64,000 nucleotides of DNA from an uncultured Gemmatimonadota bacterium (lineage in GTDB: Bacteria > Gemmatimonadota > Gemmatimonadetes > Gemmatimonadales > Gemmatimonadaceae), in NCBI GenBank assembly GCA_902826615.1, contig CADEFN010000007.1, forward strand, positions 1-64,000, given 5' to 3'. Position 1 is the first letter of the stretch. Each line of letters opens with the position of its first letter. The translations under genes were made by a program, and so were the position numbers. The notes below the pieces were generated by a model. That model made no database searches, was not told the origin of the DNA, and saw only the letters and a list, made by a program, of their open reading frames with translations. Below, one piece after another: positions 739 through 59,779 of this stretch.

Positions 739-1620
739 ATGACCAATTCCTCTCGTTGCGCTGTCGTCGCCGTCGTCGGTCCGCCTAACGCCGGCAAGTC
801 CACACTCCTGAACCGGCTCGCCGGCCAACATCTGGCCATCGTTAGTGCGCGCCCGCAGTCCACGCGATCACGCGTAACGGCGATCATTACCGAAGGCGAC
901 ACGCAACTCGTCATCGTTGACACACCAGGCCTTATGGATCCGCGATATCACTTGCATCGCGCCATGCAAAGTGAAGCATGGGAAGCAGTTGACGGCGCTG
1001 ATGTCGTGCTGTTTCTCGTGGATGGAACCAGGCCGGACGCCCCTGGACCAGACATCCTGCGCAGTCTTGGCCCGCTTCCGTCACACCCGATGGTGGTGGG
1101 AATCAGTAAAGCGGACGTCAACGATGATGAGACGAAGGCCGCCCTCTCGCTGCGCTTTCCACAGGGCGTGCACTTCTCGGCGCGCAGTGAGATGGGAATG
1201 CCGCAGCTCTTTGAGGCTATCCGTTCAGTCGCCCCCATCGGGCCCTTTCACTATCCGGATGACGACCTCAGCACCCAGCCGATGCGATTTTTCGTAGCAG
1301 AGGCTCTCCGCGAGGTGGCATTTGAGCTGCTCGAGGAGGAACTCCCGTATGCGGTGCACGTCGAAATCGATGAGTTCCGGGAGGGGAGTCGTCCGCTGTA
1401 CATTCGAGCGACGCTGCATGTAGAGCGCGACAGCCAGAAGCGAATCCTCATTGGTGCCAAGGGGGCGCAGATTCGCGCCATCGGCCAGGCGGCTCGGGCG
1501 CGTATCGAAACCTTGGTGGGTGAGGCGGTGTACTTGGATCTCTGGGTCAAAGTGCTCCACAACTGGCGACGAGACATGGCCGCCCTCCAGCGACTTGGTT
1601 TCACGTTCAAACAGGAGTAG
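739..1620 (+). CDS. era: GTPase Era, ribosome assembly factor
   Basis: Era binds the 3' end of 16S rRNA and helps mature the small ribosomal subunit. The 293-residue protein has the G1 loop GPPNAGKST at residues 14-22, a G3 DTPG at 61-64 and a C-terminal KH domain with the GAKG turn. The G4 motif is SKAD (123-126) instead of the usual NKxD. ATG 739 is the only usable start: upstream in frame there are only the T tract and then a stop, and the next in-frame start would lie beyond the P-loop. It therefore begins 3 nt after the rrn terminator with no Shine-Dalgarno sequence. The mRNA must come from terminator read-through or be almost leaderless. Length matches the family (~300 aa). Confidence 0.95.
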   Translation: MTNSSRCAVVAVVGPPNAGKSTLLNRLAGQHLAIVSARPQSTRSRVTAIITEGDTQLVIVDTPGLMDPRYHLHRAMQSEAWEAVDGADVVLFLVDGTRPDAPGPDILRSLGPLPSHPMVVGISKADVNDDETKAALSLRFPQGVHFSARSEMGMPQLFEAIRSVAPIGPFHYPDDDLSTQPMRFFVAEALREVAFELLEEELPYAVHVEIDEFREGSRPLYIRATLHVERDSQKRILIGAKGAQIRAIGQAARARIETLVGEAVYLDLWVKVLHNWRRDMAALQRLGFTFKQE

Positions 1621-1622
1621 TT

Positions 1623-1796
1623 GTGCCGCTCTCACCAGTACTGCAACGACTCCTTGTGTGCCCAGGGTGCAAAGGCGCGCTTGTCCATCAGGATGCCGAG
1701 GATCGGCTGGTCTGCGAGGTATGCCAGTTGGCCTACCCGGTTCGGGACGGCATCCCGATCATGCTCCGCGATGAAGCGATTCCGCTCAAGGGCTGA
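1623..1796 (+). CDS. Trm112-like / UPF0434 zinc-binding small protein
   Basis: A 57-codon reading frame from GTG 1623, two bases after the era stop. It encodes a typical Trm112-type peptide: LLVCPGCKGAL near residues 10-20, then CEVCQLAYPVRDGIPIML at 31-48. The two CxxC pairs would bind zinc. In bacteria this family (E. coli YcaR) is of uncertain role; in eukaryotes Trm112 activates methyltransferases. Its last 26 bases overlap the start of the next gene in another frame. Gene and family are clear; function is not. Confidence 0.85.
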   Translation: MPLSPVLQRLLVCPGCKGALVHQDAEDRLVCEVCQLAYPVRDGIPIMLRDEAIPLKG

Positions 1797-3894: not shown

Positions 3895-4694
3895 ACGTCA
3901 CGTGTCCTGAGTGTCGCACCGTGTACCGCGTAGACCCCGCCCGCGTTGTCGGTGCGAGGGTCCGAGCCCGTTGCAGCGTGTGCGGGGGCGTCATCGTCGT
4001 CACCGACCAGGTGCAGTGGGGTGACGACTTTCCTGATGACCGCCTGACGAGTCGGGAACCGGTGCGTGTGGCGACTCCGGTGTCGGTGGCAACGGCAGCG
4101 CAGCAGCCCGGTGGCGCTCCGGCGACTGAGACGGTCACACCTCCAGCGGTGCGGGTTCCTCCGTTCGCGCCACCGCGACGGCCAACTCCGGGGCCGTCCT
4201 TCGTGGCTCCGTCATTTCCGGCTTCGACCATTCGCCCGCCGACGCCGAGCTTTACTCCGGCTGTCGCTCCTCCGCGCGGGACGTTTGGCGCGCCGCTGAC
4301 CCCGGCCTCTGCGCCGGTTCAGGCACCTCCAGCTGTACCACGTCCGTCGCCGGTTGGAACGCCGATTACACCGGTTGCAGCAGCGACACCTTCGCCAACT
4401 CCCGCGCCTCCTCCACTCGTTGTCCGCAAGCCGATCAACCCGTTTCTCTCCAACGACCCGAATCAGAAGGCGCGGCGCCTGGCGAGGGCACTGGTCTCTG
4501 ATATGACTGCGTATCACCCTCAGAAGCGAGCTGAAGGTGAGCGCATGGGCACACTCAAGCAGCTCTTCCGGGAGGAGATCAAGAAGAGCTACGAGGAATA
4601 CGTGGAGCAGGTGGGTCGTGAGTTTGCCGAGGCGACCTCCCATTTCCAGGACGCACTCAACGAGATCCTGGCATCGGGGAAGCGGCTCTTCTGA
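3891..4694 (+). CDS. MJ0042-type zinc-ribbon protein with proline-rich linker
   Basis: 267 residues, starting inside the last codons of the upstream GGDEF gene (ATGA overlap). The N terminus is a zinc ribbon: MNVTCPECRTVYRVDP, then RCSVCGGVIVV, giving two CxxC pairs. Residues ~60-175 are a low-complexity Pro/Ala/Thr linker, probably disordered. The last ~80 residues (from NPNQKARRLAR) are charged and helical, with KSYEEYVEQVGREF. Such proteins occur in myxobacteria and related groups, often in regulatory settings, but I cannot assign a specific role. The pairing with a GGDEF protein suggests signalling. Confidence 0.65.
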   Translation: MNVTCPECRTVYRVDPARVVGARVRARCSVCGGVIVVTDQVQWGDDFPDDRLTSREPVRVATPVSVATAAQQPGGAPATETVTPPAVRVPPFAPPRRPTPGPSFVAPSFPASTIRPPTPSFTPAVAPPRGTFGAPLTPASAPVQAPPAVPRPSPVGTPITPVAAATPSPTPAPPPLVVRKPINPFLSNDPNQKARRLARALVSDMTAYHPQKRAEGERMGTLKQLFREEIKKSYEEYVEQVGREFAEATSHFQDALNEILASGKRLF

Positions 4695-5946: not shown

Positions 5947-7478
5947 GTGACGACCTGAATTTTGTCCTCAAGGCCCGGCGGGACAAGCTGGCCCAGCTCG
6001 AGGCCGCAGGTGTCGAGCCCTTTGCCTACTCGTTTGATGCATCGCACGATGCGGCGTCGGCCCTGCGGTCTCTTGCGGCAGATGCCGCCGAGGGGCCACG
6101 GGTGACCATTGCGGGGCGGATCGTGGCGTGGCGTCCGCACGGCAAGACCGTGTTTGGTCACGTCGCCGACGCCACGTCGCGTATCCAGGTGTACTTTCGC
6201 CGCGACGAGCTGGGGGATGCGGTCTGGGCGCAGCTGGAGTTGCTCGACATTGGCGATATCGTCGGTGTCGGGGGTGTTGTGTTTCGCACCCGCACGGGAG
6301 AAACCACGGTGAAGGCCGACGCGTTCACGCTGCTGGCGAAATCGCTTCGCCCCCTGCCGTACGGCAAGGAGGAAATTGTCGACGGTGCGGTGGTTCGGCA
6401 CTCGGGTTTTGCCGATCCGGAGCAGCGCTACCGTCAGCGGTACGCCGATCTCGCGGTGCACGCGGAGGTGCGCCGGCGGTTCATCGCCCGCACACGCATG
6501 ATCACCGAAATTCGTCGCTATATGGACGGCCTCGGGTATCTCGAGGTCGAGACCCCGGTGCTGCAGCCGTTGTACGGCGGCGCGGCCGCCCGCCCCTTCA
6601 CGACGCATCACAACGCGCTCGACATGCCGCTCTACCTGCGGATTGCCGACGAGTTGTATCTCAAGCGGCTGGTGGTCGGGGGGCTTGATCGCGTCTACGA
6701 GATCGGGCACGACTTCCGGAACGAGGGCATCGATCGGACGCACAATCCCGAGTTCACGATGCTGGAGTTCTACGAGGCCTATGCCGACTACACCGTCATG
6801 ATGGGCCGTGTGGAGCAGCTTTTGGTGCGGGCAGGCGAGGCCGTGCGCCAGGTGCTGGACCCGGCTGCCGCCACACCCGAGGAGCGACTGCTCCTGCCTG
6901 ACGAGGGACTGGTGCAGGTGCCCGCCTTTCATCCGCCATTCCCGCGAATCGAATGGGTGCCGTCGCTCAACCAGGCGTTAGGCCTTGACGTGATGACGGC
7001 CGACGATGCGACGCTGCGGAACCGGGCCGAACGAATCGGGGTACACAAGGTCGAGACACTGAGCCGGCCCAAGGTGCTGGACGAGATGTTCCAGGCGCTC
7101 GTGGAATCCAAGATCGACACTCCGACGTTCGTGGTCGACTATCCGGTGGAGCTTTCGCCGCTGGCAAAACCCAAACGGGGAGTGCCGGGCCTGACCGAAC
7201 GCTTCGAGCTGTTCGCGAAGGGCAAGGAACTCGCCAATGCGTTCAGCGAGCTCAACGATCCCATTGACCAGCGGCAGCGATTCGAGGCACAGGCGCGCCT
7301 CAAGGAAGCGGGTGATGAGGAGGCGACCGGCGTTGACGAGGACTACCTTCGCGCCATGGAATATGGGATGCCGCCCATGGGCGGTGTGGGAATCGGAATG
7401 GATCGGCTGTTCATGTACCTGTCGTCGTCGCAGAATATTCGAGACGTGATTCTTTTTCCTACCATGCGCCCTGAATGA
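5943..7478 (+). CDS. lysS: Lysyl-tRNA synthetase, class II
   Basis: 511 residues; charges tRNA-Lys with lysine. An N-terminal OB fold that binds the anticodon ([17 protein letters not shown]...) is followed by the class II core. Motif 2 reads FRNEGID...[14 protein letters not shown] and motif 3 near the C terminus reads [14 protein letters not shown]. Its ATG overlaps the prfB stop, and its own stop overlaps the next ATG (ATGA), so it sits in the prfB-to-clpC series. Family length and motifs are normal. Confidence 0.97.
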
Positions 7479-9984: not shown

Positions 9985-11092
9985 TGTTCGACCTTTCTCT
10001 GCTTCCGGAAGGAGGGCTCAAGTGGCTCCATGGGACGGGTGACCACCGCGACGTGGTCCTGTCCACACGGATCCGCCTGGCGCGCAACATCGAGGGCATT
10101 GCCTTTCCCAGCCGGTCGCGGGAAGGGGAGCGGCTTCGGGTGCTGCAGCTCATGAAGGACGCCCAGCCGCATGTGGCGGGGCTGAAGGGCGCGGTGCTGT
10201 TACGAATGGATCAGCTGGAGCCTAACGATCGGCAGTTGTTGCATGAGCGGCATCTGGTGAGCAAGGAACTGGCGGGGCTCGAGGCGTCAGGCGTGCGTGG
10301 CGCGTCGGCCGTGCTGGTGGGCGAGTCGTCCGGGGTGATGATCAATGAAGAAGATCATCTGCGGCTGCAGGCGGTCCATGCGGGTCTTGCACCGCGCGAG
10401 GCCATCGACCAGCTGCTGGCGCTTGACCGGGAGATCGGTTCGCGCGTGCCCTATGCCTACCACGACGAGTTCGGCTTCCTGACATCCTGCCCGACCAACA
10501 CGGGCACCGGACTCCGGGTCTCGATGCTGATCCATTTGCCAGGACTGGTCCTTACAAAGGAAATCGGGAAGGTTTTGTCCGGTCTTCAGGCCATGGGGCT
10601 GACGTACCGGGGGTGGTATGGGGAGGGGAGCGAAGTGGTCGGCAATTTCTTCCAGTTCTCGAACCAGATGACACTGGGCCGGTCAGAAGAAGCCCTGGTC
10701 GACGAGTTGCAACGCGTCGTCCGCCACGTCATAGAGAGGGAGCATGAGGCCAGGCGCGTGTTGTGGCGCGACGCCGGGTATATTATCGAGGACAAGCTGT
10801 GGCGCGCGTACGGTACCCTGCGTTTTGCCCGCAGTCTCACGTTCGACGAGGCGATGAATTACCTCAGTGGGGTGCGGCTGGCGGTGGGTCTGCAACTGAT
10901 CACCGGGCTCAGTGTATCGACGCTCAACAAGCTCCTGATTTTCTGCCAGGGTGCGCACCTCTCGTACGCCGAGGGTCGCGTGCTGAAGGATCACGAGGCG
11001 AATATCGCGCGGGCGCGATATGTGCGTGAGGCGTTAGGTGCGGAGTCGCCGGAATTTACCGGGCATTCAGACGGGCCCCAGTCGAGGGATAC

Positions 11093-11096
<4 letters not shown>
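9984..11096 (+). CDS. mcsB: Protein-arginine kinase McsB
   Basis: 370 residues; phosphorylates arginine side chains and so marks proteins for ClpC-ClpP. The guanido-kinase fold is clear: STRIRLARN at ~27-35, the NEEDH loop at ~121-125, and the active-site cysteine in SCPTNTGTG (Cys169). A C-terminal pArg-receptor-like region follows. I chose ATG 9984 because AAGGA at 9970-9974 is well spaced from it; GTG 9981 is the alternative. The gene overlaps both neighbours (TGATG and ATGA). Confidence 0.93.
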
Positions 11097-13594
<2,498 letters not shown>

Positions 13595-13620
13595 CCCAAG
13601 CGGGGTTCAAGGTGACCAAA

Positions 13621-13657: not shown

Positions 13658-13674
13658 GTGTATATTCGGTGGCT

Positions 13675-16101
13675 ATGTTACGACGGCTCTTCGCATTTCT
13701 CGCTTTCCTCCCCGCGATCCATCCGGCGGCGGCACAGGACGTTTCCGCCCAAGGGCGGTGCGCCACGCCTGATTCCGTGGCTGTCCGCGGCAATAAGCGT
13801 GTCACCGAGCTCACGGTGCTCGCGGACGCCGGGGTCGTGGCCGGTACCCTTCTGAACTTCAAGGCGATCCAGCGCTCCCTTCGGGCTCTGTACGAGACCG
13901 GACAGTTCGAAAGTGTGCGGGTCGGCTGCGACCTCGACGATACGAACAACAAGGCGACGCTGGTGCTCGAGGTGAAGGAGCGCCCCATGCTCATGGAGGC
14001 GGACGTCACCGGGGTCAACCGCCTTTCGGCCGGAAGTGTGAAGGACCGAGTCGACCTCGTGTATTCGCGTCCGCTGGATCCGTCGGCAGTTGCCGGTGTG
14101 GTCACGCGCATTGACTCGCTCTACGAGCGCAACGGCTACTACCTGGCGCGTGTCTACGTCGACACGACCAAACTGGCCGACGACGCAGTGAAGCTGACCT
14201 TTCGCGTCGACGAGGGCCGTCGGTTGGCGGTGTCAGGCGTTCGTGTCATCGGCAACAAGAGTCTGAAGTCGGCCGAGGTTGCCGCTGCGATGAAGACGCG
14301 GCCAGAAGGATTCTGGTGGTTCCGCAAAGGCGAGTTTGACGACGACAACTACGCCGGTGACCTGTCCGAGCGGCTCCCGGCGCTGTACGCCAAGCAGGGC
14401 TTTATCGACTTCCGCGTCGCTGGCGACACGATGATCATCGACCGCGAGCGCGGGAAAGCGCTGCTCGAGGTCCGCGTTGAGGAAGGGCCGCGGTACAAGG
14501 TTGGCGACTTCGAGATCAACGGGAACCGGCACTTCTCCAGCGAAGACATTGCCCGCTTCTACCCATTCACCGACTACAGCCGACCCATGATGGCCCGGGT
14601 GACGGACTTCATCCGTCGCCGAAAGCCCACACCGACCGGTGTGTTCGATGCCGCCCGGTGGGAAGACGCCAAGAGCAAGATTTCTGGTGCGTACGCCACC
14701 GACGGCTACATCTACGCCAACGTGCGGCCCGTGGTGGACCGGCGGGTGGCTGATGACTCGTCTCGTTATGTCGATTTGCGCTGGGAGGTTGAAGAGCGCT
14801 CGCCCGCGATCATCAACCGGGTTGAGATATTCGGCAATGACTACACACAGGAACCCTGCATCCGGGATCAGCTCGTCATTCTCCCCGGGCAGGTGTTCAA
14901 TCAGGACGCGCTGATCCGCAGTTGGCAGAGCCTGGGGAACCTGGGTTTCTTCGAGACTCCCATTCCGCCCCCTGACACGCGTACGGCTAACGACGCCGGC
15001 GATGTGGATGTGATTTTCCGTCTCAAGGAGAAGCGCACCGGCAACATCAACTTCGGGGCGTCGATGGGGCAGGGTACCGGTGTCGGCGGGTTCATCGGTC
15101 TCGATCAGCCCAATCTCTTCGGCTCGTGCAAGCGCGGCTCACTGCAATGGCAGTTCGGCCGGTTCATCAATGACTTCCAGCTGAGCTATTCGGACCCGCG
15201 CATCAAGCAGTCGTTCATCTCCGGGACCGTCTCGCTCTATCGGTCGCAGGCGCGGTACTTCATCGCCGATCTCGGCCGGTCGCTGCGGACCGGTGGCAAT
15301 CTCCAGATCGGCGTGCCGATGCCGCGTGATCGTTGGTCACGTGTGTTCTTCTCCTATGGTGCGGAGAACGTGCAGTTTGGTACGGGAGGTTTGCTCGGCG
15401 ATGTGCGCGGTGAGTTCGGCAATTCATCGTTCCGCTCCACGTTAGGCGCGCAGCTCACACGCGACACCCGGATTGACATGCCATTCCCGACTGCGGGGTC
15501 GCAATACTCGGTGTCGGCCAACTTCAATGGCGGCTTGCTGGGCGGAACATCGACCTTCTCCCGGTTTACCGCCGACGCGTCAGCGTACGCACCGCTGGCA
15601 CAGTTTGGTGGCGGTGGACCGGGCTCTCAGCCGATGAAACTGCTCGTGGGGTTGAGTATGAAGTCGGGGATGGTGTCTGGTGATACCGGACCTTTCTTCT
15701 TCTCCCAGGAGTTTGCACTGGGTGGCGTGCAGTTCGGGGAACGCCTCCGCGGTTACGATGAGTTCTCCATTTCGCCGAACGGCTTTATTACGGGGACCAC
15801 GACGTTCAACGCGCAGCGTGGTTCTTTCGGAAAGGCGTTCTTGACGACAACGGCTGAAGTGGGTTTGCGCCTCAACCAGGCGTTGTACCTTGCGGCATTC
15901 TACGATGCAGGCAATGTGTGGCGGGCCCCCCGGGACTTCGATCCGACGCGGTTGTTCCGGGGGTCGGGCATCAGTGTGTCAACGGTGACACCACTGGGTC
16001 CGTTAGGGCTGGACTACGCGTACGGGTTTGACCGGCTGGATGCGCAAGGGCGCCAACGGCCGAAATGGCAGCTGCACTTCCGACTTGGACAGTTGTTCTA
16101 G
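13675..16101 (+). CDS. bamA: Outer-membrane protein assembly factor BamA
   Basis: 808 residues. A signal peptide (MLRRLFAFLAFLPAIHPAAAQ) is followed by about five POTRA domains (~25-430; for example VAVRGNKRVTELTVLADAGVVAGT) and a C-terminal Omp85 barrel ending in WQLHFRLGQLF. BamA inserts barrel proteins into the outer membrane. ATG 13675 gives the clean signal peptide; an upstream in-frame GTG at 13612 would place the start before the clpC terminator hairpin and is rejected. It heads the skp-lpx block, an arrangement also seen in E. coli (bamA-skp-lpxD-fabZ-lpxA-lpxB). Confidence 0.94.
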   Translation: MLRRLFAFLAFLPAIHPAAAQDVSAQGRCATPDSVAVRGNKRVTELTVLADAGVVAGTLLNFKAIQRSLRALYETGQFESVRVGCDLDDTNNKATLVLEVKERPMLMEADVTGVNRLSAGSVKDRVDLVYSRPLDPSAVAGVVTRIDSLYERNGYYLARVYVDTTKLADDAVKLTFRVDEGRRLAVSGVRVIGNKSLKSAEVAAAMKTRPEGFWWFRKGEFDDDNYAGDLSERLPALYAKQGFIDFRVAGDTMIIDRERGKALLEVRVEEGPRYKVGDFEINGNRHFSSEDIARFYPFTDYSRPMMARVTDFIRRRKPTPTGVFDAARWEDAKSKISGAYATDGYIYANVRPVVDRRVADDSSRYVDLRWEVEERSPAIINRVEIFGNDYTQEPCIRDQLVILPGQVFNQDALIRSWQSLGNLGFFETPIPPPDTRTANDAGDVDVIFRLKEKRTGNINFGASMGQGTGVGGFIGLDQPNLFGSCKRGSLQWQFGRFINDFQLSYSDPRIKQSFISGTVSLYRSQARYFIADLGRSLRTGGNLQIGVPMPRDRWSRVFFSYGAENVQFGTGGLLGDVRGEFGNSSFRSTLGAQLTRDTRIDMPFPTAGSQYSVSANFNGGLLGGTSTFSRFTADASAYAPLAQFGGGGPGSQPMKLLVGLSMKSGMVSGDTGPFFFSQEFALGGVQFGERLRGYDEFSISPNGFITGTTTFNAQRGSFGKAFLTTTAEVGLRLNQALYLAAFYDAGNVWRAPRDFDPTRLFRGSGISVSTVTPLGPLGLDYAYGFDRLDAQGRQRPKWQLHFRLGQLF

Positions 16102-16120
16102 CCCCCCAGGAGATATTGCA

Positions 16121-16729
16121 ATGAACGTGACTCGTTGGATCCTCGCCGGCGCGGTTGCAGGTGTATCGCTGACCGCGCAGCGCGCTGAGGCCCAGGCGCA
16201 AAAGTTTGCTTACGTTGACTCGCGCGCGATTGTCGAGCGTGCACCGGGCGCAATTGCGGCACAGGCCGCGTTGCAGAAGGAGCAGGAGGTGCTGCAGGCA
16301 CGTGTCAAAGTCTGGCAGGACTCCCTGCAGGCGATGATCACGGCCTATCAGAACGCAGAGAAGACGCTCACCGAGGCGCAGAAGCAGACCCGTCAACGCG
16401 CCATCCAGGATCGCCAGGCCGACTACGCCAAGCGGGCCGAGGAGCTCGATCAGCAGATGCAGGTGCGCCAGCAGGAGCTGTCGCAGCCGGTCATGGCCCA
16501 GATCAAGGAAACGCTCGAGGATGTCCGGAAAGAAGACGGCTACACCTTCATCTTTGACATTGCCAGCAATGGCGTGATTGTCGCCGTGGACAAGAACCTC
16601 GATCTCACGGACAAGGTGGTTGGTCGCCTCAAGCCGATTCCGGTGGCCACCAAGGCTGATTCGGCCAAGTCGCCGTTAGGCGCCAAGCCCGCGCCCGCTG
16701 GCGTGACCAAGAAGCCGCCGACGCAGTGA
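16121..16729 (+). CDS. skp: OmpH/Skp-family periplasmic chaperone
   Basis: 202 residues with a signal peptide ending near AEAQAQ, then [16 protein letters not shown], a long coiled coil rich in Gln/Lys/Glu (~50-125), and a closing strand region ([19 protein letters not shown]). Skp trimers carry unfolded outer-membrane proteins to BamA. AGGAGA at 16108-16113 serves the ATG. Compared with E. coli Skp (~161 aa) it has an extra Pro/Lys-rich tail. The order bamA-skp-lpxD is conserved in many diderms. Confidence 0.88.
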
Positions 16730-16770: not shown

Positions 16771-17799
16771 ATGGCGTTGAGCCACGCTCTCACCGCTCGA
16801 CGCATTGCCGAGCTGGTTGGTGGCGAGTTGCACGGCGATGGCGACGTGCAGGTGCGGCGTGTTGCCCCGATCGAACGCGCCACCACCGATGCGGTGACCT
16901 TTCTGGGCAGTGCGCGATATGCGGCTTTCCTGGGGGAGTGTGAAGCCGGCGTCGTGCTGGTTTCACCGGAGCTGGCAGAGACTCCTGGCCGGCCGGCGGC
17001 GCGCGTGGTGATTCGCAATCCCCAGGAGGGGATTCTGGCGCTGCTTCCTCACTTTCATGCTCCCGCGCCTCGACGACCGGGGGTCGATGCCACTGCTCGC
17101 ATCGGACGCGGGGCGGAGCTCGGCGAAGGAGTGGAGATTGGCCCGTACGTCGTGATCGGTGCGGGGGCTCGGATCGGCGATGGCAGCAGGCTTGGCGCCC
17201 ATGTGGTCGTTGGTGATGGGGTGGAGATCGGGGATCACTGCACGATCATGCCCCATGTCACCTTGTATGGCGGAACCTCGTTAGGCGCGCGGGTCATCGT
17301 GCACGCCGGTGCGCGCATCGGGAGTGACGGCTTCGGCTATGTCTTTTCGGCGGGCGCCCACCAGAAAATTCCGCATGTCGGTCGCTGCATTATCGAAGCG
17401 GACGTGGAGATCGGCGCCAACAGCACCATCGATCGTGGGTCGATCGATGACACCGTTGTCGGGGCAGGCACCAAGATCGACAACCTTGTCCAGATCGCGC
17501 ACAACGTGCGTATCGGCAAGCTGTGTCTGATCATGGCGCAGGTCGGCATTGCGGGGTCGGTTCGGATCGGAGATGGGTGTGTGCTGGCGGGACAAGTGGG
17601 CGTCTCGGGCCATCACACCATCGGTGACGGAGCCAGGTTGGCTGCGCAGGCCGGTGTGTTCGGCGATGTGCCTGCGGGTGAGACCTGGTCCGGATATCCA
17701 GCGCGACCCCATCGCGAGGCGTTGCGATCTCAGGCGACCCTCTTCAAGCTTTCCGGAATGATCAGGCGTATCGAGAAACTGCTGGGAGACCGAGAGTGA
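16771..17799 (+). CDS. lpxD: UDP-3-O-(3-hydroxyacyl)glucosamine N-acyltransferase
   Basis: 342 residues from ATG 16771; adds the second hydroxyacyl chain in lipid A synthesis. An N-terminal uridine-binding domain ([20 protein letters not shown]) precedes a left-handed beta-helix of hexapeptide repeats ([30 protein letters not shown]...). The His-containing catalytic segment is [15 protein letters not shown] at 16726 overlaps the skp stop and would add 15 residues; the shorter start fits the family length (~341) better. The stop overlaps the lpxC/fabZ start. Confidence 0.93.
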
Positions 17800-19067
17800 C
17801 GGGCCGGCGCACCATAACGCGCGAAGCCGTCCTGGAGGGTACGGGGTTACACCTGGGGATTCCTTGTCGGCTGACCTTTCGACCCGGCCCCTGTCGGTCT
17901 GGCGTTCGTTTCGTCCGTGATGACCGCCCGGGTTCTGAGCCGATTCCCGCCAGTGTCACGGTGGCGGTGGAGAGCGAGCGTCGCACCCAGCTGGGTGACG
18001 GCGACAACGCGCTGCACACGGTGGAACATGTGCTGGCCGCGGTCGTTGCCGCACAGATGGACGACCTGGAGATCGGGCTTGATGGGCCGGAGCCGCCGAT
18101 CATGGATGGCAGCGCCGGCCCCTTTCTTCGCGCGCTCCTCGGCGCCGGGGTGCGCACCAACGGAGGAATGCCGGATACACTGGTGATCCGGGAGCCCTTC
18201 CGTATGGACGACGGGGAGTCCTGGTACGAGGCGTATCCCGCGAGTGGTCTGACGGTGGGGGTCACGATATCGTTCGATCATCCCCTGGTGGGTCGTCAGA
18301 GCGGTACGTGGCGTGTGACGACGGAGGAATTCACACGGGAACTGGCCGACGCCAGAACGTTCGGCTTCGCCGCCGAGGTGGACCTGTTGCGGAGCCGCGG
18401 GCTCATCCGGGGCGGGAACACCGGGAACGCCGTCGTGCTGGACGAGGTTGGGGTGGTGGAAAACGAACTCCGCTGGCCTGACGAGTTTGTGCGGCACAAG
18501 GCCCTGGATTGTATTGGCGACCTCGCCCTGGCAGGTCGCCGGGTGCAGGGTCGGATCATGACATACCGCCCGAGTCATGCGGGCACCGTTCGCTTCGTTC
18601 GGGAGTTGACCAAACGCGCGCAGAAGGAGACGCACGTGATCGGCATCGAGGAAATCATGAAGGTGCTACCGCACCGGTACCCCTTTCTGCTCGTGGACAA
18701 GGCCATCGAGTACGAAGAAGGGAAGCGGGTGGTCGGCATCAAGAACGTCACCATCAATGAGCCCTTCTTTCAGGGCCATTTCCCGGGGCATCCAATCATG
18801 CCCGGGGTCCTCATCATCGAGGCCATGGCGCAGGTCGGCGGCATTCTGCTGATGGGCACCGTGCCTGATCCATCGAGCAAGGTGGTGTATTTCACTTCGC
18901 TCGATAACGTGCGCTGGCGCAAACCCGTGAAACCGGGTGATCAGCTGCGATTCGAACTCGAGGTGGTGCAGATCCGCGGGCCGGTGTGCCGCATGAAGGG
19001 GGTCGCCAAGGTCGATGGCAGTCTGGTGGCCGAAGCCGAAATGTCCGCCATGCTGCGCGATAAATGA
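17796..19067 (+). CDS. lpxC/fabZ: Fusion of LpxC deacetylase and FabZ dehydratase
   Basis: 423 residues with two enzymes in one chain. Residues 1-~280 are LpxC, the zinc deacetylase that commits UDP-sugar to lipid A. Zinc ligands lie in HTVEHVLA (~73-80) and HKALDCIGD (~234-242), and IMDGSAGPF is present. Residues ~283-423 are FabZ, with the active-site His in [11 protein letters not shown] and the Glu in [11 protein letters not shown]. FabZ makes the unsaturated acyl-ACP used in fatty acid elongation and competes for hydroxyacyl-ACP, so the fusion ties the two activities one to one. The same fusion is known from Bacteroidetes and Chlorobi. Start is GTG 17796, overlapping lpxD. Confidence 0.93.
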
Positions 19068-20847: not shown

Positions 20848-21952
20848 GGTGCTGGTTATCGCCGGCGAGGCGTCCGGCGATCTGCATGGGGCGGGGCTGG
20901 TCAACGCGTTAGGCGCGCTGCGCCCGGAGTGGCGCTTTGCCGGCCTTGGTGGGGTGTGCATGCGGGATGCCCGCGTGACCCTGCTGGAGGACGCGGAGCA
21001 CCTCGCCGTAATGGGATTTGTTGAAGTGTTGCGTCAGGTGCCGCAGCACTACCTGCTGCTGCGTCAGCTGGAGCGACGCATGGCGGGTGGCGAGGTGAAA
21101 CTGGTGGTGGTGATCGACTATCCCGGCTTCAACATGCGCGTGGCTGCAGCGGCGCAGCGTCATGGTGTGCCGGTGCTGTACTACATCACACCGCAGGTAT
21201 GGGCCTGGGGTGCGGGTCGGCTTCCGCGACTCAAGCGGCTCATCACGCGCGCGGCGTGTATTCTGCCGTTCGAAGCTCCGCTGCTGCGCGAGCATGGTAT
21301 CGATGCCACTTTTGTAGGGCATCCTCTGCTCGACCGGGCGCTCAATCTGCCGGCCCGTGATGAGGCCCGTGCGTCGTTAGGTGTGGCCGCCGATACGCCA
21401 TTGCTCGTGCTCTTTCCCGGGAGCCGGACACAGGAGATTCGACGTCACCTGGAGGTGTTCGCCGAAACGGGGCGCCGACTGCAGGCCCGTGTCCCTTCAC
21501 TGGAAGTGCGCGTGGCCGTGGCGCCGACCATCCGCCTTGACGCGTCGTCGGTGCCATTCCCGCTGGTCCATGGGGCGTCGTTCGCGCTGCTGCGCGCAGC
21601 CGATGCGGCGTTGTGTAAAAGTGGCACGACGACCCTCGAAGCGGCCGTCGCGGGGTGCCCGCATATCGTCGCTTACCGGACGAGTGGGTGGACATACGCC
21701 ATCGCGCGCCGTCTGGTGACCATTCCACGGATCGGACTGGTGAATGTGGTGGCGGGGGCCGAAGTCGCGCCGGAGTTCGTCCAGGAGCGTGCCGTCCCCG
21801 ATCTCATGGTCCCGGCGTTGGAGCCGCTGCTTGATCGTTCATCGCCCCAGCGCGCCAGGATGGTGACGGCGTTAGGCGAGGTTCGCGAGCAGCTCGGGAG
21901 CCCCGGAGCCGCGCAGCGCACCGCCGAGATTGCGTCGGCAATGGTGGTGTGA
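20840..21952 (+). CDS. lpxB: Lipid-A-disaccharide synthase
   Basis: 370 residues from GTG 20840 (8-bp overlap with the upstream gene). Joins UDP-diacyl-glucosamine and lipid X into the lipid A disaccharide. The start VLVIAGEASGDLHGAGL, the segment YYITPQVWAWG and the C-terminal CKSGTTTLEAAV are LpxB hallmarks (GT19). Longer in-frame starts lie inside the gnnA-like gene and are not supported. Confidence 0.94.
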   Translation: MPEVLVIAGEASGDLHGAGLVNALGALRPEWRFAGLGGVCMRDARVTLLEDAEHLAVMGFVEVLRQVPQHYLLLRQLERRMAGGEVKLVVVIDYPGFNMRVAAAAQRHGVPVLYYITPQVWAWGAGRLPRLKRLITRAACILPFEAPLLREHGIDATFVGHPLLDRALNLPARDEARASLGVAADTPLLVLFPGSRTQEIRRHLEVFAETGRRLQARVPSLEVRVAVAPTIRLDASSVPFPLVHGASFALLRAADAALCKSGTTTLEAAVAGCPHIVAYRTSGWTYAIARRLVTIPRIGLVNVVAGAEVAPEFVQERAVPDLMVPALEPLLDRSSPQRARMVTALGEVREQLGSPGAAQRTAEIASAMVV

Positions 21953-25537: not shown

Positions 25538-25538
25538 C

Positions 25539-39546: not shown

Positions 39547-39579
39547 CGGACGTGCCAGCCGCCCGTTATCGTTAGGTCC

Positions 39580-40341
39580 ATGCGATTGCTTTGTTCCAAC
39601 GACGACGGGATCCTGGCACACGGCCTCGACTGCCTGGTGCGCGCTGCCAGCCAGATTGGCGACGTCACCGTGGTGGCTCCCGACCGCGAGCAGAGTGCCA
39701 CCAGTCACTCCCTCACCCTGCATCATCCATTGCGCCCGGTACGTCGTGGCGACCGGCGCTTTCAGGTGGATGGCACCCCGACCGACTGCGTGATGCTCGC
39801 CATCGAGGTGCTCATGCCGGAGCGCCCGGACTTCGTCCTCAGCGGGGTGAATCACGGGCAGAACATGGGTGAAGACGTGCTCTATTCGGGCACGGTGGCG
39901 GCGGCCATGGAAGGGCTCGCGTTAGGTGTTCCGTCGATTGCCATTTCGTTCGCGGGTGGCGATCTGCGCGCCGACATTGCCCGTCTCGACGAACAGGTCG
40001 AAGTGCTGGTGCCGCTCCTCCGGCATCTGACTTCCCTGACAAACTTCCCTGAGCATACGTTGCTCAACGTGAACCTTCCGCCGTTGCGGGCAGACCAGGT
40101 GCGTGGGGTCCGGTTGACACGGCTGGGACGCCGGGTGTATTCCAATTCCATCTCGCCCATGCGCGATCCGTACGGGCGCCAGATCTACTGGATTGGCGGA
40201 GGGGAGTTTTCCTGGTCCGGAGCCGAAGACTCGGATTTTCAGGCGATTCATGATGGCTACATCTCGGTGACCCCGTTGCATCTCGACCTTACTCATCGCG
40301 ACATGCTCGATACCGCGGATCGCTGGTGGCGAGCTCCGTAG
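39580..40341 (+). CDS. surE: 5'/3'-nucleotidase SurE
   Basis: 253 residues. The start LLCSNDDGILAHGLDCL supplies the metal-binding DD. DREQSATSHSLTLHHPLR, SGVNHGQNMGEDVLYSGTVAAAMEG and the C-terminal ISVTPL region are family marks. It dephosphorylates nucleoside monophosphates. A CGTTAGG word lies 9 bp upstream of the start. It overlaps pcm by 16 bp; the surE-pcm pair is common and linked to stress survival. Confidence 0.93.
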   Translation: MRLLCSNDDGILAHGLDCLVRAASQIGDVTVVAPDREQSATSHSLTLHHPLRPVRRGDRRFQVDGTPTDCVMLAIEVLMPERPDFVLSGVNHGQNMGEDVLYSGTVAAAMEGLALGVPSIAISFAGGDLRADIARLDEQVEVLVPLLRHLTSLTNFPEHTLLNVNLPPLRADQVRGVRLTRLGRRVYSNSISPMRDPYGRQIYWIGGGEFSWSGAEDSDFQAIHDGYISVTPLHLDLTHRDMLDTADRWWRAP

Positions 40342-43369: not shown

Positions 43370-43398
43370 AGCATAGCGGCTGTGACTCGTCAGGCCAA
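43370..43398 (-). promoter_or_regulatory. Possible promoter of the AP2-like gene
   Basis: On the minus strand: TTGGCC (43398-43393), 17-bp spacer, TATGCT (43375-43370), ~31 bp before the start codon. The 186-nt gap 43339-43524 also holds a perfect hairpin, TGGCCAGC/GCTGGCCA, at 43443-43461, and a smaller one at 43467-43484, between the divergent genes. Confidence 0.3.
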
Positions 43399-47494: not shown

Positions 47495-47496
47495 GC

Positions 47497-49180: not shown

Positions 49181-51590
49181 TCGCCACCTGCCGCCGGGTG
49201 TTCATCGCCCCCAGGCCAAGCCAGAGGAGCGACGCGCCTAACGCCAGCCAGGTGACCATACGTCCAGTGGCATACGGCTCATTCACGAAGGAGAGCTCGA
49301 TCTTGCGTGCACCTTCGGGAAGTGGCACGCCGATCAGGGCCACATTGGCACGTCCGACGGCGACCGGCTTGCCGTCCACCGTGGCGCGCCAGCCCGGGTA
49401 GTAGTTCTCCGACACCACCAGCGCCGAGCCGGCCGGTGCCGGGGTCTCGAGCTCGATGGTGGCCGATCCCGGTTGGTAGGAGAGAACCCGGGCAATCGTC
49501 ATCGCCGGGGCCGGTACCGTCGTGACGTTGGCGGCCGTGACGGTGGCCGATGAATCAAAGATGGCCACCGTGCGCACATCAAAACGCGGATCGAGGACGG
49601 TGGCGGCCGACGCCTCATCCCCAGCCTTCACGATGGCACTGGCAAGCCAGGCGTAGTGACTGGCTGCCGGTAGTTGATGCACGTACATGTTGTTGCCATG
49701 CACGTTCTTCACGGGGCCGAAGACCATCCGGGCACTGTCGATCGGTGGGCTTTCCGTGTCAGTGAGGACATACCGCGTGTTTGACAGCAGCCAGAAATTC
49801 GGGTTGGCCAACTGACGGTAGCCATCCTCCAGCGACCCGCTCAGCAGGTCAAACTTGCCAATGTGGTTGCCGTGATAGCCGAGTGTGACCGGGATTCGGT
49901 GCGTCATCAACCCGTCGTAACTCAGCATGTTGAGATACTGATCGCGTGGATTGCCTTCCCTGGGAGGGAACGCCATGACGCGGAACGGGCCGGGCTGTTT
50001 CTGGAGGAAGGTGATGGCCTCGTCGGCGGCAAAAATCTGGCCGGCGGGCGGAGTGAACTGGAAGTACTGCTTGAGAACGGTCCAGAGATCGGTCGCGACG
50101 AGTGCGATGAGCAGCGCACCCGCGAGGTCACGAGAGAGCCGCCTGGTGCCAATCAGGAAAATACCGGCGCCGGCGAGCGCCCCCATGAGCAACATGCGAA
50201 TAGCGCCGGTCTTGAGCGCGGTCTCATTCTGGATGACGGCCTGCGCCATCTGCTCGCCCGCGATGGAAAGCGCGCTGTTGGTGAGCCCGCCCGAGAGTCC
50301 AAAGAGCGCGAGCAGCAGGAGGGCCACACCGCCGCCAATCAGCGGGCCACGACGCAACTCGCCCCGGAACAGCCGATCGGCGCCGAATGCGGCGAGACAG
50401 GCCAGCGAGAAGTTCACGATAAAGAGCATCGTACTCGGCGCGCGGAAGAACTTGGTGCCGGGCACAATGGCGTAGACCAGCGAGTAGAACGGCGTGAAGC
50501 CGCCCATCGCCCAGAACAAGGAGATCACGAACGTCGCCAGCAGAAAGCGCACGACACGACGATGTGCGCCGGCCGGCCACGCTCCGATGGCACAGACCGC
50601 CAGCAGGATCACTACCACACCGACATACTCGGAGTGCAGGTGAAGCCCGTTGCGTCCCCAGTAGTTGCCGAGGATTCCCGAGAACTGCGGCAAGGCGAAG
50701 TTGATGACCTCTTCCGGCGGGAGCGAGTAGGAGATGGCGTGCTCCCAGCCCATGCCTCCGCTGCGTGGTGACCAGGGGGTGTAGGTCTTTACCGGCCAGA
50801 ACTGGATGGCGCCCATGAGCATGCCGAGGGCCACCGCGCCTAACGCCGCACCGAGTCGCTTGAGACCTGGTGCTCCTGTCACGGAGGCGTCGCCTGCTTC
50901 ACTCCCCCAGCCCCGCCACAGAAAGAGTGCGAAGGCGCCCGTCAGGAGGAGCATGTACTGCAGGAGCTGCGGATGCGGCGAGAGTACCGCGAGGCCAACC
51001 ACGATCGCAAGTGCGCCCCACGCCCACGATTTGGCATCACGGACACCGCGTACGACGAAGTAAAGCGCGAGGGGAAGGAGGGCGGCGACGAAGATCTTGC
51101 CGTCGTGACCGGGGGAGACGAGCCCGGCGATGTTGCCCGACATCTGGTACGCGACACCACCCAGCATGGCGGCAAAAAACGAGAGCCGCAGGGAGCGCAG
51201 GAATACGTACGTGAAAATGCCGGCAAGGAAGAGATGGATGACCAGCCCCCATGTCATCCCGGGTCCGGTGCCGATGAGCAGCCGAAGGAGAGCCGTGGGA
51301 TAAAACGTGTCGCCGTGCATGGCGTCCACAAACGGCATCCCGCCATACAGGTACGGGTTCCACTGCGGAATGCTGCCGTGATCAAGGAAGTACTGCCGCG
51401 CGAAGTCGCGAAAGGCGTACCCTGCCTTGTACTGGTCAGACGACGGATTGAGCAGCAGCTGGCCGCTCAGCGCGGGATAACACAGCACCATCGTCGCCAG
51501 CAGGTGCACCCCAACCGCCATGAGCCCCGCAAAGCGAGGCGCTGCCGGTGCGGCCGGTGTCGAGGAGTCGCCGGAGCTGGACTTGGTCAT
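49173..51590 (-). CDS. YfhO-family multi-pass membrane protein (GT-C-like)
   Basis: 805 residues with 12 or more hydrophobic segments across the first ~500 and near the C terminus (MVTWLALGASLLWLGLGAM), plus a soluble domain at ~510-760. The early loop NPSSDQYKAGYAFRDFARQYFLDHGSIPQWNPYLYGGMPF carries the acidic residue and W-N-P pattern of YfhO/GT-C proteins. YfhO transfers sugar from a lipid carrier to envelope polymers in Gram-positives. A 110-nt gap to the upstream GT4 gene contains TAAATT on the minus strand (51653-51648), a possible weak -10. Confidence 0.82.
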   Translation of the reverse strand: MTKSSSGDSSTPAAPAAPRFAGLMAVGVHLLATMVLCYPALSGQLLLNPSSDQYKAGYAFRDFARQYFLDHGSIPQWNPYLYGGMPFVDAMHGDTFYPTALLRLLIGTGPGMTWGLVIHLFLAGIFTYVFLRSLRLSFFAAMLGGVAYQMSGNIAGLVSPGHDGKIFVAALLPLALYFVVRGVRDAKSWAWGALAIVVGLAVLSPHPQLLQYMLLLTGAFALFLWRGWGSEAGDASVTGAPGLKRLGAALGAVALGMLMGAIQFWPVKTYTPWSPRSGGMGWEHAISYSLPPEEVINFALPQFSGILGNYWGRNGLHLHSEYVGVVVILLAVCAIGAWPAGAHRRVVRFLLATFVISLFWAMGGFTPFYSLVYAIVPGTKFFRAPSTMLFIVNFSLACLAAFGADRLFRGELRRGPLIGGGVALLLLALFGLSGGLTNSALSIAGEQMAQAVIQNETALKTGAIRMLLMGALAGAGIFLIGTRRLSRDLAGALLIALVATDLWTVLKQYFQFTPPAGQIFAADEAITFLQKQPGPFRVMAFPPREGNPRDQYLNMLSYDGLMTHRIPVTLGYHGNHIGKFDLLSGSLEDGYRQLANPNFWLLSNTRYVLTDTESPPIDSARMVFGPVKNVHGNNMYVHQLPAASHYAWLASAIVKAGDEASAATVLDPRFDVRTVAIFDSSATVTAANVTTVPAPAMTIARVLSYQPGSATIELETPAPAGSALVVSENYYPGWRATVDGKPVAVGRANVALIGVPLPEGARKIELSFVNEPYATGRMVTWLALGASLLWLGLGAMNTRRQVASA

Positions 51591-52894: not shown

Positions 52895-53955
52895 TCGCCC
52901 GAAGGTTCGTGCAGTTCGTCGGTGACCCGCCGGAGTTCGCGGACCTGCGCGCGAAGACCTGCGACCTGCTCGCCGAGTATGCCGGCGACAAAAAAGATGG
53001 AGCCGAGGATCAGGGTCGTCTGGATGACGGTCCACACCGACCGCGTGCCCACGCCAAGAAGGGCCAGCCGTCCGAGCGCAACAAGCCCCGCCAGCACGCC
53101 CACGCCGAAGAGTGCCGCGCCCATCATGCCGAAGAGAAGCAATGGCTTCTGGCCGAAGCGCAGCTCGAACCACACGGAGAGCATGTCCATCACACCCACC
53201 GGAATGCGCCCAATGCCGAACTTCGACTTGCCGGCATGCCGTGGGTAGAGTGGCACGGGGATCTCGCTCACCGTGTAGCCCTGCGCCGCAGCGAGGACAA
53301 TCATGTAGCGATGCCAGTCAGGACGCACCGGGAGCTGCTCCATGATCTCCCGGCGATAGGCTTTCACGTTGTTGAGGTCCTTTACGCGGACATCAAACAA
53401 GACTCGGCTAAGCAGATTGTAGATGCGAGAGACAAACGCCTTTTCGTATTTCCCCTGCTTGTACCCGGTGACCATATCGGCCTCGTTGGCCATGATGGGG
53501 GCCACGAGTCTGGGAATGTCTTCGGGCTTGAACTGCATGTCGGCCGGATAGAACACCAGCACCTGGCCACGGGCGTTGAGGAATCCGGTACGCAGTGCGT
53601 CGGCAATGCCGCGACGGCTGCGATGTCTGACCGCGCGGAGAAAGGGATACTGCTCGCGCAGTTGCTCGAGCACGGCCCAGGTCCGGTCGGTGGAGCCATC
53701 GTCGATGACGAGGACCTCGTAGCTGAACCCGTCCTTGCCTAACGCCGCTTGCGCCTCGGCCATGAACAGCGGCAGGTTCTCGGCTTCGTCCTTGGCCGGG
53801 ACAAGCACGGAGATCTGCACGGGAGGAGCGGTTCGAAGGGGTGCCGGCTCGCGTGTCTGCGAGAGGCTCGCCGGCGCATCCGCTCCCTCATGCCCAGAGG
53901 CTGCCTGGCGAACGGCTACCTCGGTCCCCACTGTCAACGGTGTGCCGCGTTCCAT
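52891..53955 (-). CDS. GT2 family glycosyltransferase with two C-terminal membrane helices
   Basis: 354 residues. After ~45 variable residues comes a GT2 domain (ISVLVPAKDEAENL, VIDDGSTDRT, FYPADMQFKPED, then KDLNNVKAYRRE). Two hydrophobic helices follow at ~265-330 (LLLFGMMGAALFGVGVLAGLVAL and TTLILGSIFFVAGILGEQV) and a short charged coiled tail. This is the layout of ArnC/GtrB-type enzymes that load a sugar onto undecaprenyl phosphate. Start touches the rpoN stop. Confidence 0.88.
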   Translation of the reverse strand: MERGTPLTVGTEVAVRQAASGHEGADAPASLSQTREPAPLRTAPPVQISVLVPAKDEAENLPLFMAEAQAALGKDGFSYEVLVIDDGSTDRTWAVLEQLREQYPFLRAVRHRSRRGIADALRTGFLNARGQVLVFYPADMQFKPEDIPRLVAPIMANEADMVTGYKQGKYEKAFVSRIYNLLSRVLFDVRVKDLNNVKAYRREIMEQLPVRPDWHRYMIVLAAAQGYTVSEIPVPLYPRHAGKSKFGIGRIPVGVMDMLSVWFELRFGQKPLLLFGMMGAALFGVGVLAGLVALGRLALLGVGTRSVWTVIQTTLILGSIFFVAGILGEQVAGLRAQVRELRRVTDELHEPSGE

Positions 53956-58269: not shown

Positions 58270-58820
58270 CGCCGCGGGAGCGTCACGGGGTTCCCAGACG
58301 ATTGCGCGGCCCGCAGGATCCGGATCGAATTCAGGTCCGGGTCGCTTACGAAGCCGATTCCCTTCATGATGCGTCCGCTTTTCTGCGTCAGGGTGAAGGC
58401 GCTGTCAGAGGAGATCTCATTGCGCGTCGGGTCGAAGCGAAGGTGTGGTGTGACCAGGTTGTTCCCGACCGTGGAGTTCACCACGACGTCACCGCGGGCT
58501 TCCATGCTTCCAATGCGCGAATTGTACGTACCCTGCTTTGACGTCAGGACGGCATCCTTCTCGCCCGAGACCTTGAAGAAGGTCGCGTTCACTTTGCGGA
58601 GCTCGGTGCGCGTGTTCTCTTCGAACATGTAGGCCGTATCCGACTTCACCTCGGCGCGGCGCAGGCCTGCGTCGGTGACGAAGAAGTGGACCCCGAACAT
58701 GGTCTGGTCGGCGGAGTCGGCGACGGTGGCCGGCGGCGCCACCTGCGGCGTGGACGAGTCGCGGCACGCGCCGAGAACGAGGAGCGCAAAGCCGAGCGAC
58801 CAGAGTGGTCCGCGGCTCAT
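58266..58820 (-). CDS. lptC: LptC-like protein with lipoprotein signal
   Basis: 184 residues. The start MSRGPLWSLGFALLVLGAC has a lipobox (LGAC), unlike E. coli LptC, which keeps an N-terminal membrane helix. The remainder is a beta-jellyroll pattern (LRRAEVKSDTAYMFEENTRTELRKV, SKQGTYNSRIGSMEARGDVVV). Order kdsD-lptC-lptA-lptB is that of the classic LPS transport operon. Confidence 0.83.
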   Translation of the reverse strand: MSRGPLWSLGFALLVLGACRDSSTPQVAPPATVADSADQTMFGVHFFVTDAGLRRAEVKSDTAYMFEENTRTELRKVNATFFKVSGEKDAVLTSKQGTYNSRIGSMEARGDVVVNSTVGNNLVTPHLRFDPTRNEISSDSAFTLTQKSGRIMKGIGFVSDPDLNSIRILRAAQSSGNPVTLPRR

Positions 58821-59779
58821 GCCACCCCCGCGCGCATGAGGTCGTGCAGATGAATCACGCCCACCAGTTTCTGCTCCTCGTCGATGACCGGCATCGCCAT
58901 GATGCCGATCTGTTCCATGCGGTACACCACGGCCGAGGCCAGCTCCCCGTCCTGCGCCAGTTTGGGATTCCCCGTCATGACATGCTCGAGCCGGGCGGCC
59001 AGCGGATCGGGGACTCGCTCAAGGGCCCGCGGCAGGTCGCCGGCAGTAAAGACCCCGGTCACGCCTCGATGTTCATCGGTCACCACGACGATCCCGCGGC
59101 GAGCGGCCAGCAGCACCACGGCCTCCCGGAGGGTGGCCGCCGGACCCAGGACCGGGAGTTGGTCGACCTCCATGATTTCGTGCGTCCGCATGACGAGCTT
59201 GCGTCCGAGGGCGCCGCCGGGATGAATCCGCGCAAAGTCCTCGCGGCGAAAGCCCTTGCGTTCGAGCACCGCCACCGCGAGGGCGTCGCCTAACGCCAGC
59301 GCCACGGTGGTGCTGGTGGTGGGCGCCAGATCGTGAGGGCAGGCTTCTTCGCGCACCCAGCCATCGAGGACCGCGTCACTCCCGCGCGCCAGGGACGACG
59401 AAACCACTCCTGTCAGGGCCACCGTCCGCGTGCCGAATCGCTTGAGATGCGCAAGGAGAGTGAGCAGCTCATCACTCTCCCCGCTCTTGGAGAGGAGGAT
59501 GGCGACGTCGTCCTCACCCACGATGCCGAGGTCTCCATGCACACTTTCGGTGGGATGCAGGAAGGTCGCCGGGGTGCCTGTGGATGTCAGCGTCGCGGCA
59601 ATCTTTCGCGCGATCAGGCCCGACTTCCCGACACCGCTCACAATCACCCGTCCGGTCGCGGTGACGATGAGATCGACGGCACGCGCGAAACCATCGCCAA
59701 GACGGCGACGCGCTTCGCCTAACGCTTCGGCCTCGAGGTCGAGCACGCGCTGACCTGCCGCAATGGCCTCGGCGCTCAT
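58817..59779 (-). CDS. kdsD: D-arabinose-5-phosphate isomerase (KpsF/GutQ family)
   Basis: 320 residues from ATG 59779, which overlaps the kdsC stop. Makes arabinose-5-phosphate, the first step toward KDO. SIS domain: VIVSGVGKSGLIARKIAATLTSTG, FLHPTESVHGDLGIV, LSKSGES. Two CBS domains follow from ~205 (MRTHEIMEVDQLPVL and LEHVMTGNPKLAQ). An earlier in-frame start inside kdsC is not supported. Confidence 0.93.
   Translation of the reverse strand: MSAEAIAAGQRVLDLEAEALGEARRRLGDGFARAVDLIVTATGRVIVSGVGKSGLIARKIAATLTSTGTPATFLHPTESVHGDLGIVGEDDVAILLSKSGESDELLTLLAHLKRFGTRTVALTGVVSSSLARGSDAVLDGWVREEACPHDLAPTTSTTVALALGDALAVAVLERKGFRREDFARIHPGGALGRKLVMRTHEIMEVDQLPVLGPAATLREAVVLLAARRGIVVVTDEHRGVTGVFTAGDLPRALERVPDPLAARLEHVMTGNPKLAQDGELASAVVYRMEQIGIMAMPVIDEEQKLVGVIHLHDLMRAGVA

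Follow-up and report, generated by a model that had tools for sequence, protein, structure and literature searches.

CGTTAGGY, a short asymmetric DNA word iterated in some genera of the Gemmatimonadales, as a possible self-recognition word for DNA uptake

Why should functionally unrelated genes share one seven-base word, and in only two reading frames? The question is raised by the heptamer CGTTAGG in a stretch of 64,000 nucleotides from an uncultured bacterium of the Gemmatimonadaceae (positions 1 to 64,000 of contig CADEFN010000007.1, assembly GCA_902826615.1; G000:C7:1-64000 in our numbering), which we call the window and which belongs to a genome (G000) of 5.9 Mb in 98 contigs. The original prediction, made from the letters of the window, had counted 29 copies at a GC content of about 65%, and our recount gives the same 29, 18 on the + and 11 on the - strand, at a measured GC content of about 64%. 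It had expected about 8 copies from base composition; dinucleotide shuffles of the window give a mean of 2.8 (standard deviation 1.7, at most 7 among 100 shuffles), so that the excess is larger than claimed and amounts to about 10-fold. Under a second-order Markov model CGTTAGG ranks first among the 7-mers of the window for over-representation, and its extension CGTTAGGC first among the 8-mers. All but one of the copies are genic (28/29), 27 lying in genes called by the custom script that we used for the window and the sampled stretches and one more (16674) in the open reading frame (ORF) 16028-16729, and the single intergenic copy starts at 39570. The genic copies occupy two frames only, exactly as had been described: 22 read in sense as nCG-TTA-GGn (Leu-Gly) and 6 in antisense as CCT-AAC-G (Pro-Asn). 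When synonymous codons are shuffled in the window genes without altering protein or codon use, 1.6 copies result (at most 6 in 200 shuffles) against 28 observed. The same genes contain 33 TTA codons, 22 within the word and 11 elsewhere, where about five had been noted earlier. Because the copies at 16001 and 27807 continue with G, 27 of the 29 have the form CGTTAGGY (Y, C or T).

A count over the whole genome bears out the enrichment beyond the window, with 2361 CGTTAGG against 886 for the reversed word and 2223 copies of the unit CGTTAGGY against 521, a density of about 376 per Mb or one per 2.7 kb. Samples analysed in detail cover 864 kb of the 5.9 Mb, the window included. In 464 kb of the genome, which hold 198 CGTTAGGY, the 248 GTTAGG-type sites are preceded by C in 85% and followed by C or T in 94% of cases, with little signal at farther positions. 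Shuffles that preserve protein and codon use again leave the excess standing, as the genes of a 600-kb stretch give 6.6 copies (at most 11 in 60 shuffles) against 181 observed.

A codon-pair or translational preference for TTA-GG, one of the explanations offered originally, would suit the two frames that alone occur in the window. It is refuted by the codon choice for Leu in the 600 kb, where TTA is used in 155 of 286 NCG-Leu-Gly contexts, in 24 of 2054 contexts in which another residue follows NCG-Leu, and in none of the 215 [SPTA]-Leu-Gly sites lacking NCG; TTA before Gly thus requires the preceding CG. The antisense Pro-Asn form contradicts such a preference too, as do the further frames in use in two relatives: the four stop-free frames hold 121, 34, 2 and 1 copies in 464 kb of G000, 14, 8, 12 and 11 in G024 (22 sense, 23 antisense) and 85, 13, 45 and 13 in G020. 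The strict phasing is mostly constraint, because stop codons bar two of the six frames and use of the missing two requires AGG or CTA; for the pair in common use the proteins of the 600 kb allow 594 slots, of which 179 are filled. Finally, the density of CGTTAGGY outside called genes (0.42 per kb) is similar to that inside (0.37 per kb). CGTTAGGY is a DNA word and not a codon-pair effect, an explanation to which we leave practically no probability. Depletion of synonymous words, also proposed originally, fails as well, since, a few exceptions apart, those one-base neighbours of CGTTAGGC that should be frequent reach or exceed their expected counts.

The full site is about (A)CTCGTTAGGC, and a weaker companion word, CTCGTCAGGC, occurs 58 times in the 864 kb against 3.8 expected, in genes and on both strands; the two words have CGTYAGGC in common. 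A CT prefix precedes the perfect core in 8 of 278 cases and is much more frequent at four core variants, CGTCAGGC (58/133), CGTTAGGT (23/77), CGTTATGC (11/27) and TGTTAGGC (9/28), with Fisher p between 2e-6 and 9e-25 for the excess over the perfect core. These four were chosen after a screen, and ten one-base variants were tested; a fifth, CGTTAGGA, has the prefix in 2 of 7 cases (p 0.02), and for the other five the CT excess is not significant. From these counts it looks as if the CT prefix rescues several imperfect cores, as though a protein needed a certain total contact strength. The full site CTCGTTAGGC itself is rarer than expected among perfect cores, making up 8/278 where the Markov ratio (0.8 to 11.8) points to about 7%, as though excessive strength were not favoured in a site. 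G020 tolerates TGTTAGGC (36 versus 4.6 expected) and CGTTGGGC (54 versus 11.9), both dispersed and without arrays; its stretch L109 overlaps L110 and is included in these two and some sample counts, and excluded from the frame and spacing figures. The final T is rare in this genome, CGTTAGGT making up 24 of 4493 copies compared with 458 of 2223 in G000.

Copies of the word avoid each other at short range. Among the 245 copies of the 600-kb stretch, 3 gaps are shorter than 200 bp against 19 expected. As only three control 8-mers of similar count could be found for a spacing test, we adopted a slot model in which 179 positions are drawn from the 594 allowed; 1 gap below 200 bp is seen versus 11.4 and 13 below 500 bp versus 26, and for both none of 2000 draws was as low. 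Gaps below 200 bp are scarce in G024 as well (1 versus 7.5 expected) and, more weakly, in G020 (15 versus 24.5, P 0.015). The idea of a polar segregation or recombination word, comparable to FtsK orienting polar sequences (KOPS) or Chi, did not survive the strand-skew check: in the 600 kb around the GC-skew minimum, which lies at 340 kb of contig C1 of G000, the copies split into 130 leading and 115 lagging ones, 51.5% of the coding bases being in leading orientation, so that replication polarity is absent. Likewise 21 samples spread over the G020 chromosome give 119:101 on the two strands and no clear swing. Two 20-kb samples of the G020 megaplasmid hold 12 CGTTAGGC each, a density about that of the chromosome. 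In G000 the protein-allowed slots are filled in 25 of 130 cases in the least typical quartile of genes and in 57 of 155 in the most typical, native-looking one, typicality and not acquisition status itself being scored. At the skew minimum we also noticed 10.4 kb without the word (G000:C1:340088-350490) that by eye contain dnaN- and mnmE-like genes and are probably the origin region. In the five largest word-free stretches of C1, where we looked through the initial 40 residues of the genes by eye, no clear mobile element was seen.

To see how the word is distributed among relatives we counted CGTTAGGY in 179 genomes of the family, of which 26 are ON, with at least about 93 copies per Mb, whereas the remaining 153 reach about 27 at most. 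The ON genomes belong to 11 of 35 genera (g1, g6, g12, g17, g21, g33, g38, g40, g41, g43 and g46), and one member of g40, G125, is OFF. A wider sample of the phylum (298 genomes) adds as ON the sole member of g61 and all but one of the five members of g48; G262, G030 and G208 are intermediate, with about 51-78 copies per Mb, and may be in the process of acquiring or losing the word. Outside the order the density stays at or below 33 per Mb in all 126 genomes, and samples of seven OFF genomes contain 0 copies in 511 kb. On a ClpC tree of 50 genomes (five of 55, G011, G012, G115, G128 and G135, were left out for fragmentary ClpC; ON means here more than 80 per Mb, the intermediates G262 and G030 being scored off) the ON label changes 9 times, with at least 7 changes forced by well-supported branches, versus 16 for shuffled labels. 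The ON state is therefore partly inherited and often switched. Genus-level dialects of the word exist: CTCGTCAGGC exceeds 25 per Mb in ON genomes only, in 7 of the 11 ON genera, and stays below 7 per Mb in OFF genomes, and in genus g6 its copy number comes close to that of the main word (756 versus 1004 in G009).

Between species the conservation of single copies is modest. G002, from the same genus and with 74% nucleotide identity over the aligned part, keeps 7 of 25 fully aligned words, compared with a background of 9.8% when all codon-phase 8-mers are taken (P 0.0085), and in like codon phase 4 of 20 words are kept versus 0 of 15 other NCG-Leu-Gly sites. In G015 1 of 21 words is kept (background 6.4%) and in G009 1 of 15. 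Partner genomes without the word mostly have CGCTCGGC, CCCTGGGC or similar in its place, at least two changes away and with transversions among them. We considered single-step mutation or repair as the origin of the word and rejected it, as sites mostly differ at two or more bases between species.

What could such a word be for? Among the ideas of the original prediction, DNA uptake is the best supported. We give about an even chance to the reading that CGTTAGGY is a self-recognition word for DNA uptake, like the DNA uptake sequence (DUS) of the Neisseriaceae or the uptake signal sequence (USS) of the Pasteurellaceae. The DNA-binding part of a type IV pilus or competence machine on the cell surface would prefer fragments bearing the word, these would be taken up and recombined more often, and word-bearing alleles would spread wherever protein and stop codons allow, with one copy per few hundred bases being sufficient. 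We infer that a protein binds the word, that it acts in uptake and that uptake bias makes the excess from the resemblance and from the features that we could show: the excess itself, its DNA-level nature, the compensation between core and flank, the lack of polarity, the short-range avoidance, the patchy ON and OFF states with their dialects, and the presence of PilT and ComEC. In 42 genomes tested (17 ON, 23 OFF and the intermediates G262 and G208), G000 among them, PilT genes are found in all and ComEC genes in 39, G000 having both; the ON genomes G001 and G126 show no ComEC. Genomes with USS or DUS are two to three times smaller than 5.9 Mb. The 2223 copies in G000 are near the 1,465 USS and 1,892 DUS given in the accessible part of PMC7811141, which we count as support for the uptake reading. 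In soil populations, ComEC with adjacent operonic genes accompanied more recombination, a result that the excerpt of PMC7305173 does not tie to Gemmatimonadota specifically.

Several observations weigh against uptake. The machinery does not track the switch, since PilT occurs in ON and OFF genomes alike, ComEC in 15 of 17 ON and 22 of 23 OFF genomes, and GspH-type pilins (29 of 42) in 11 of 17 and 16 of 23, without separation. The DUS receptor of Neisseria is the minor pilin ComP, and its family ComP_DUS (PF16732) is above cut-off in 1 of the 42 genomes, an OFF one. Among ON genomes G130 and G174 have weak PF16732 matches below cut-off and G000 has none at E 0.001, and in the 42 genomes neither of the receptor families PF16732 and PF12019 separates ON from OFF. 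The ON genomes are scattered on the tree, unlike the types of DUS and USS, which agree with the phylogeny of their respective families according to the accessible parts of PMC3630211 and PMC1626085. Conservation is modest; DUS are exactly conserved in 71% of cases according to the available part of PMC2397512, which is far more, though our comparison spans a greater divergence. Six of the ten core variants have little or no CT excess. As for spacing, gaps below 500 bp are not significantly scarce in G020 (P 0.19) or G024 (P 0.09), and long-range evenness is not significant in the 600 kb (coefficient of variation 0.91 versus 0.99, P 0.07; in the slot model 0.93 versus 0.98, P 0.22). Close inverted pairs of the terminator type are absent from the window and from 200 kb of C1, where the nearest copies are 144 bp and 177 bp apart, respectively. 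A single literature search found no competence experiment for Gemmatimonadota.

The main rival is a word made by methylation, in which a DNA methyltransferase together with methylation-guided repair or conversion makes and keeps the word and uptake has no role, as may hold for the highly iterated palindrome HIP1 of cyanobacteria. According to the accessible part of PMC4390886, HIP1 resembles the present word in its high iteration and its on or off states by lineage, and it tracks methyltransferases; a patchy distribution would suit a transferable enzyme, and the G020 megaplasmid samples are about as dense in CGTTAGGC as the chromosome. We nevertheless regard it as unlikely, because CGTTAGGY is not a palindrome, its upstream flank rescues several core flaws in a way unlike a methyltransferase target, its one-base neighbours show no general depletion and its copies avoid each other. 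Its density of about 376 per Mb also differs from the 1000-2000 per Mb of HIP in the same excerpt (PMC4390886). Most sites that differ between species do so by at least two bases, with transversions among the changes, so that a single repair step cannot account for them. Short, over-represented and specific to an enzyme, Chi words could switch along with it, and a self word of this kind, serving a nuclease or helicase in the protection or recombination of the cell's own DNA, could produce anti-clustering through diminishing returns. In E. coli, Chi is split 75:25 between strands; the 130:115 around the skew minimum differs from this (p 1e-13), and with the lack of a clear swing in the G020 samples (119:101) it makes a Chi-like word improbable.

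A word bound by a protein of the nucleoid, of segregation or of replication would account for thousands of spread and graded sites, and the 10.4-kb gap at C1:340,088-350,490 by the skew minimum would agree with it. Chromosome and megaplasmid samples are covered alike, however, polarity is lacking, and presence and absence in sister genera would be odd for a core chromosome function, so that we consider this explanation quite improbable. The core of integron attC sites is GTTRRRY, and GTTAGGC fits it; same-strand arrays of CGTTAGGC with a spacing of about 600 bp in OFF relatives moreover resemble attC arrays. A word of integron attC or secondary sites is still very improbable for the window, where the copies are single and in unrelated genes, and the integron integrase TIGR02249 is above cut-off in ON (G000, G020, G024) and OFF genomes (G006, G023, G080) alike. 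The attC reading was dropped for this lack of a link between integrase presence and the ON or OFF state. TIGR02249 is above cut-off in 93 of the 179 family genomes, and integrons are therefore very common in the family. Separately from the word of the window, we saw one-strand-biased CGTTAGGC every few hundred bases in G025:C95 (L146, 1-20000), where the array has GCCTAACA partners, as well as in G025:C43 and C80, G256:C2, G271:C5 and G348:C14; these genomes are OFF relatives within the order, and their arrays look like attC cassette arrays of integrons.

Returning to the uptake reading, CGTTAGGY shares with DUS, as portrayed in the accessible parts of PMC7811141 and PMC3630211 (about 1,900 copies per genome), a short non-palindromic word with genus dialects and a strong core in weaker surroundings. 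It differs in the word, in the phylum, in its scattered ON and OFF states, in weaker conservation and in that no ON genome has ComP_DUS above cut-off. USS combine a 9-bp core with interacting flanks, which resembles the present case, and they occur about once per kb and arise by point mutation, according to the available parts of PMC7811141 and PMC1626085. In contrast, CGTTAGGY has no AT-rich flanks, is less dense (one per 2.7 kb) and is scattered over lineages. With HIP1 (GCGATCGC) it has in common, going by the excerpt of PMC4390886, that it is genome-wide and present or absent by lineage. HIP1, however, is palindromic and tied to methyltransferases, whereas CGTTAGGY is asymmetric with a rescuing flank. 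Chi and KOPS are short, over-represented and asymmetric as well, but polar with replication, which CGTTAGGY is not. The attC core is similar in that CGTTAGGC fits GTTRRRY and that arrays occur in relatives, and dissimilar in that the window sites stand singly in genes and integrase presence is unlinked.

According to the accessible part of PMC12616744, selection of DNA by words of this kind is known from two families only, the Neisseriaceae and the Pasteurellaceae. A literature search that left aside subscription papers and preprints gave no report of CGTTAGGY or of any uptake word in Gemmatimonadota, and among the matches listed in a text search for CGTTAGG no title concerned a genome-wide word of bacteria. 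The Gemmatimonadales could hold a third, independent self word for uptake, with a receptor other than ComP, many gains and losses among sister genera and dialects of two words, a proposal that we put forward tentatively and rate as somewhat more doubtful than true. If true, birth and decay of uptake specificity would be observable within one bacterial order. Such a third case, coming from a distant phylum and offering several pairs of ON and OFF genera close to each other, would make it possible to test selection against molecular drive as the origin of such words, and likewise the co-evolution of receptor and word and gene exchange among Gemmatimonadota by biased uptake. Even without uptake, the literature that we looked into describes no word that is asymmetric, self-avoiding, graded and switching between near genera.

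In the window the six antisense copies are all on the - strand, at 784..790 in an Era-like GTPase gene (739-1620), 10221..10227 in an ATP:guanido phosphotransferase-family gene (9981-11096; copy conserved in G002), 26487..26493 in a bshC-like gene (25305-27134), 30569..30575 in uvrC (28742-30610), 32936..32942 in a nickel-insertion protein gene (31892-33055; conserved in G002) and 36264..36270 in an EngA-like GTPase gene (36219-37538). Sense copies on the + strand begin with 6976..6982 in gene 5943-7478, 11032..11038 in the phosphotransferase-family gene 9981-11096 and 12558..12564 in gene 11093-13594; the labels lysS and clpC for genes 5943-7478 and 11093-13594, like kdsD below, are those of the original prediction. 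They continue with 15440..15446 and 16001..16007 (the latter followed by G, not Y) in bamA/Omp85 (13612-16101), 16674..16680 in ORF 16028-16729, 17279..17285 in gene 16726-17799 (conserved in G002) and three copies in lpxB (20750-21952) at 20907..20913, 21375..21381 and 21870..21876. A Glu/Leu/Phe/Val dehydrogenase-family gene (23618-24991) carries 24144..24150 and 24288..24294, the second conserved in G015, and gene 27131-28705 carries 27807..27813, again followed by G. The remaining sense copies on this strand are 29739..29745 in uvrC, 30899..30905 in a PLP-enzyme gene (30637-31842; conserved in G002), 37690..37696 in gene 37542-38165 and 39920..39926 in gene 39580-40341 (conserved in G002). 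The intergenic copy at 39570..39576 (+), within 39547-39579, is conserved in G002 as well. Sense copies on the - strand are 49237..49243 and 50839..50845 in a YfhO-family gene (49173-51590), 53738..53744 in a glycosyltransferase gene (52891-53955), and 59289..59295 (conserved in G002) and 59718..59724 in gene 58817-59830, labelled kdsD, which has SIS and CBS domains. The second word CTCGTCAGGC is found at 4042..4051, 6896..6905, 12247..12256 and 18476..18485 on the - strand and at 43386..43395 and 60714..60723 on the + strand.

For the protein encoded by gene 5943-7478, the six closest matches come from metagenome-assembled genomes of Gemmatimonadetes/Gemmatimonadales, at 66-72% identity. Over-representation in the 864 kb of G000 samples also extends to CCTTGAGC/GCTCAAGG (113 versus 30 expected) and to words overlapping them. 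In samples of G007 (L132-L134, L217, L218) an exactly repeated unit of about 30 bases (k-mers such as CTCCATTGAA and GTTGACCTGA) occurs about 30 times, possibly as an array of clustered regularly interspaced short palindromic repeats (CRISPR). At 44480-47689 (-) the window encodes a protein of 1069 amino acids that fuses APH-type phosphotransferase, peptidase M23 and class-III aminotransferase domains.

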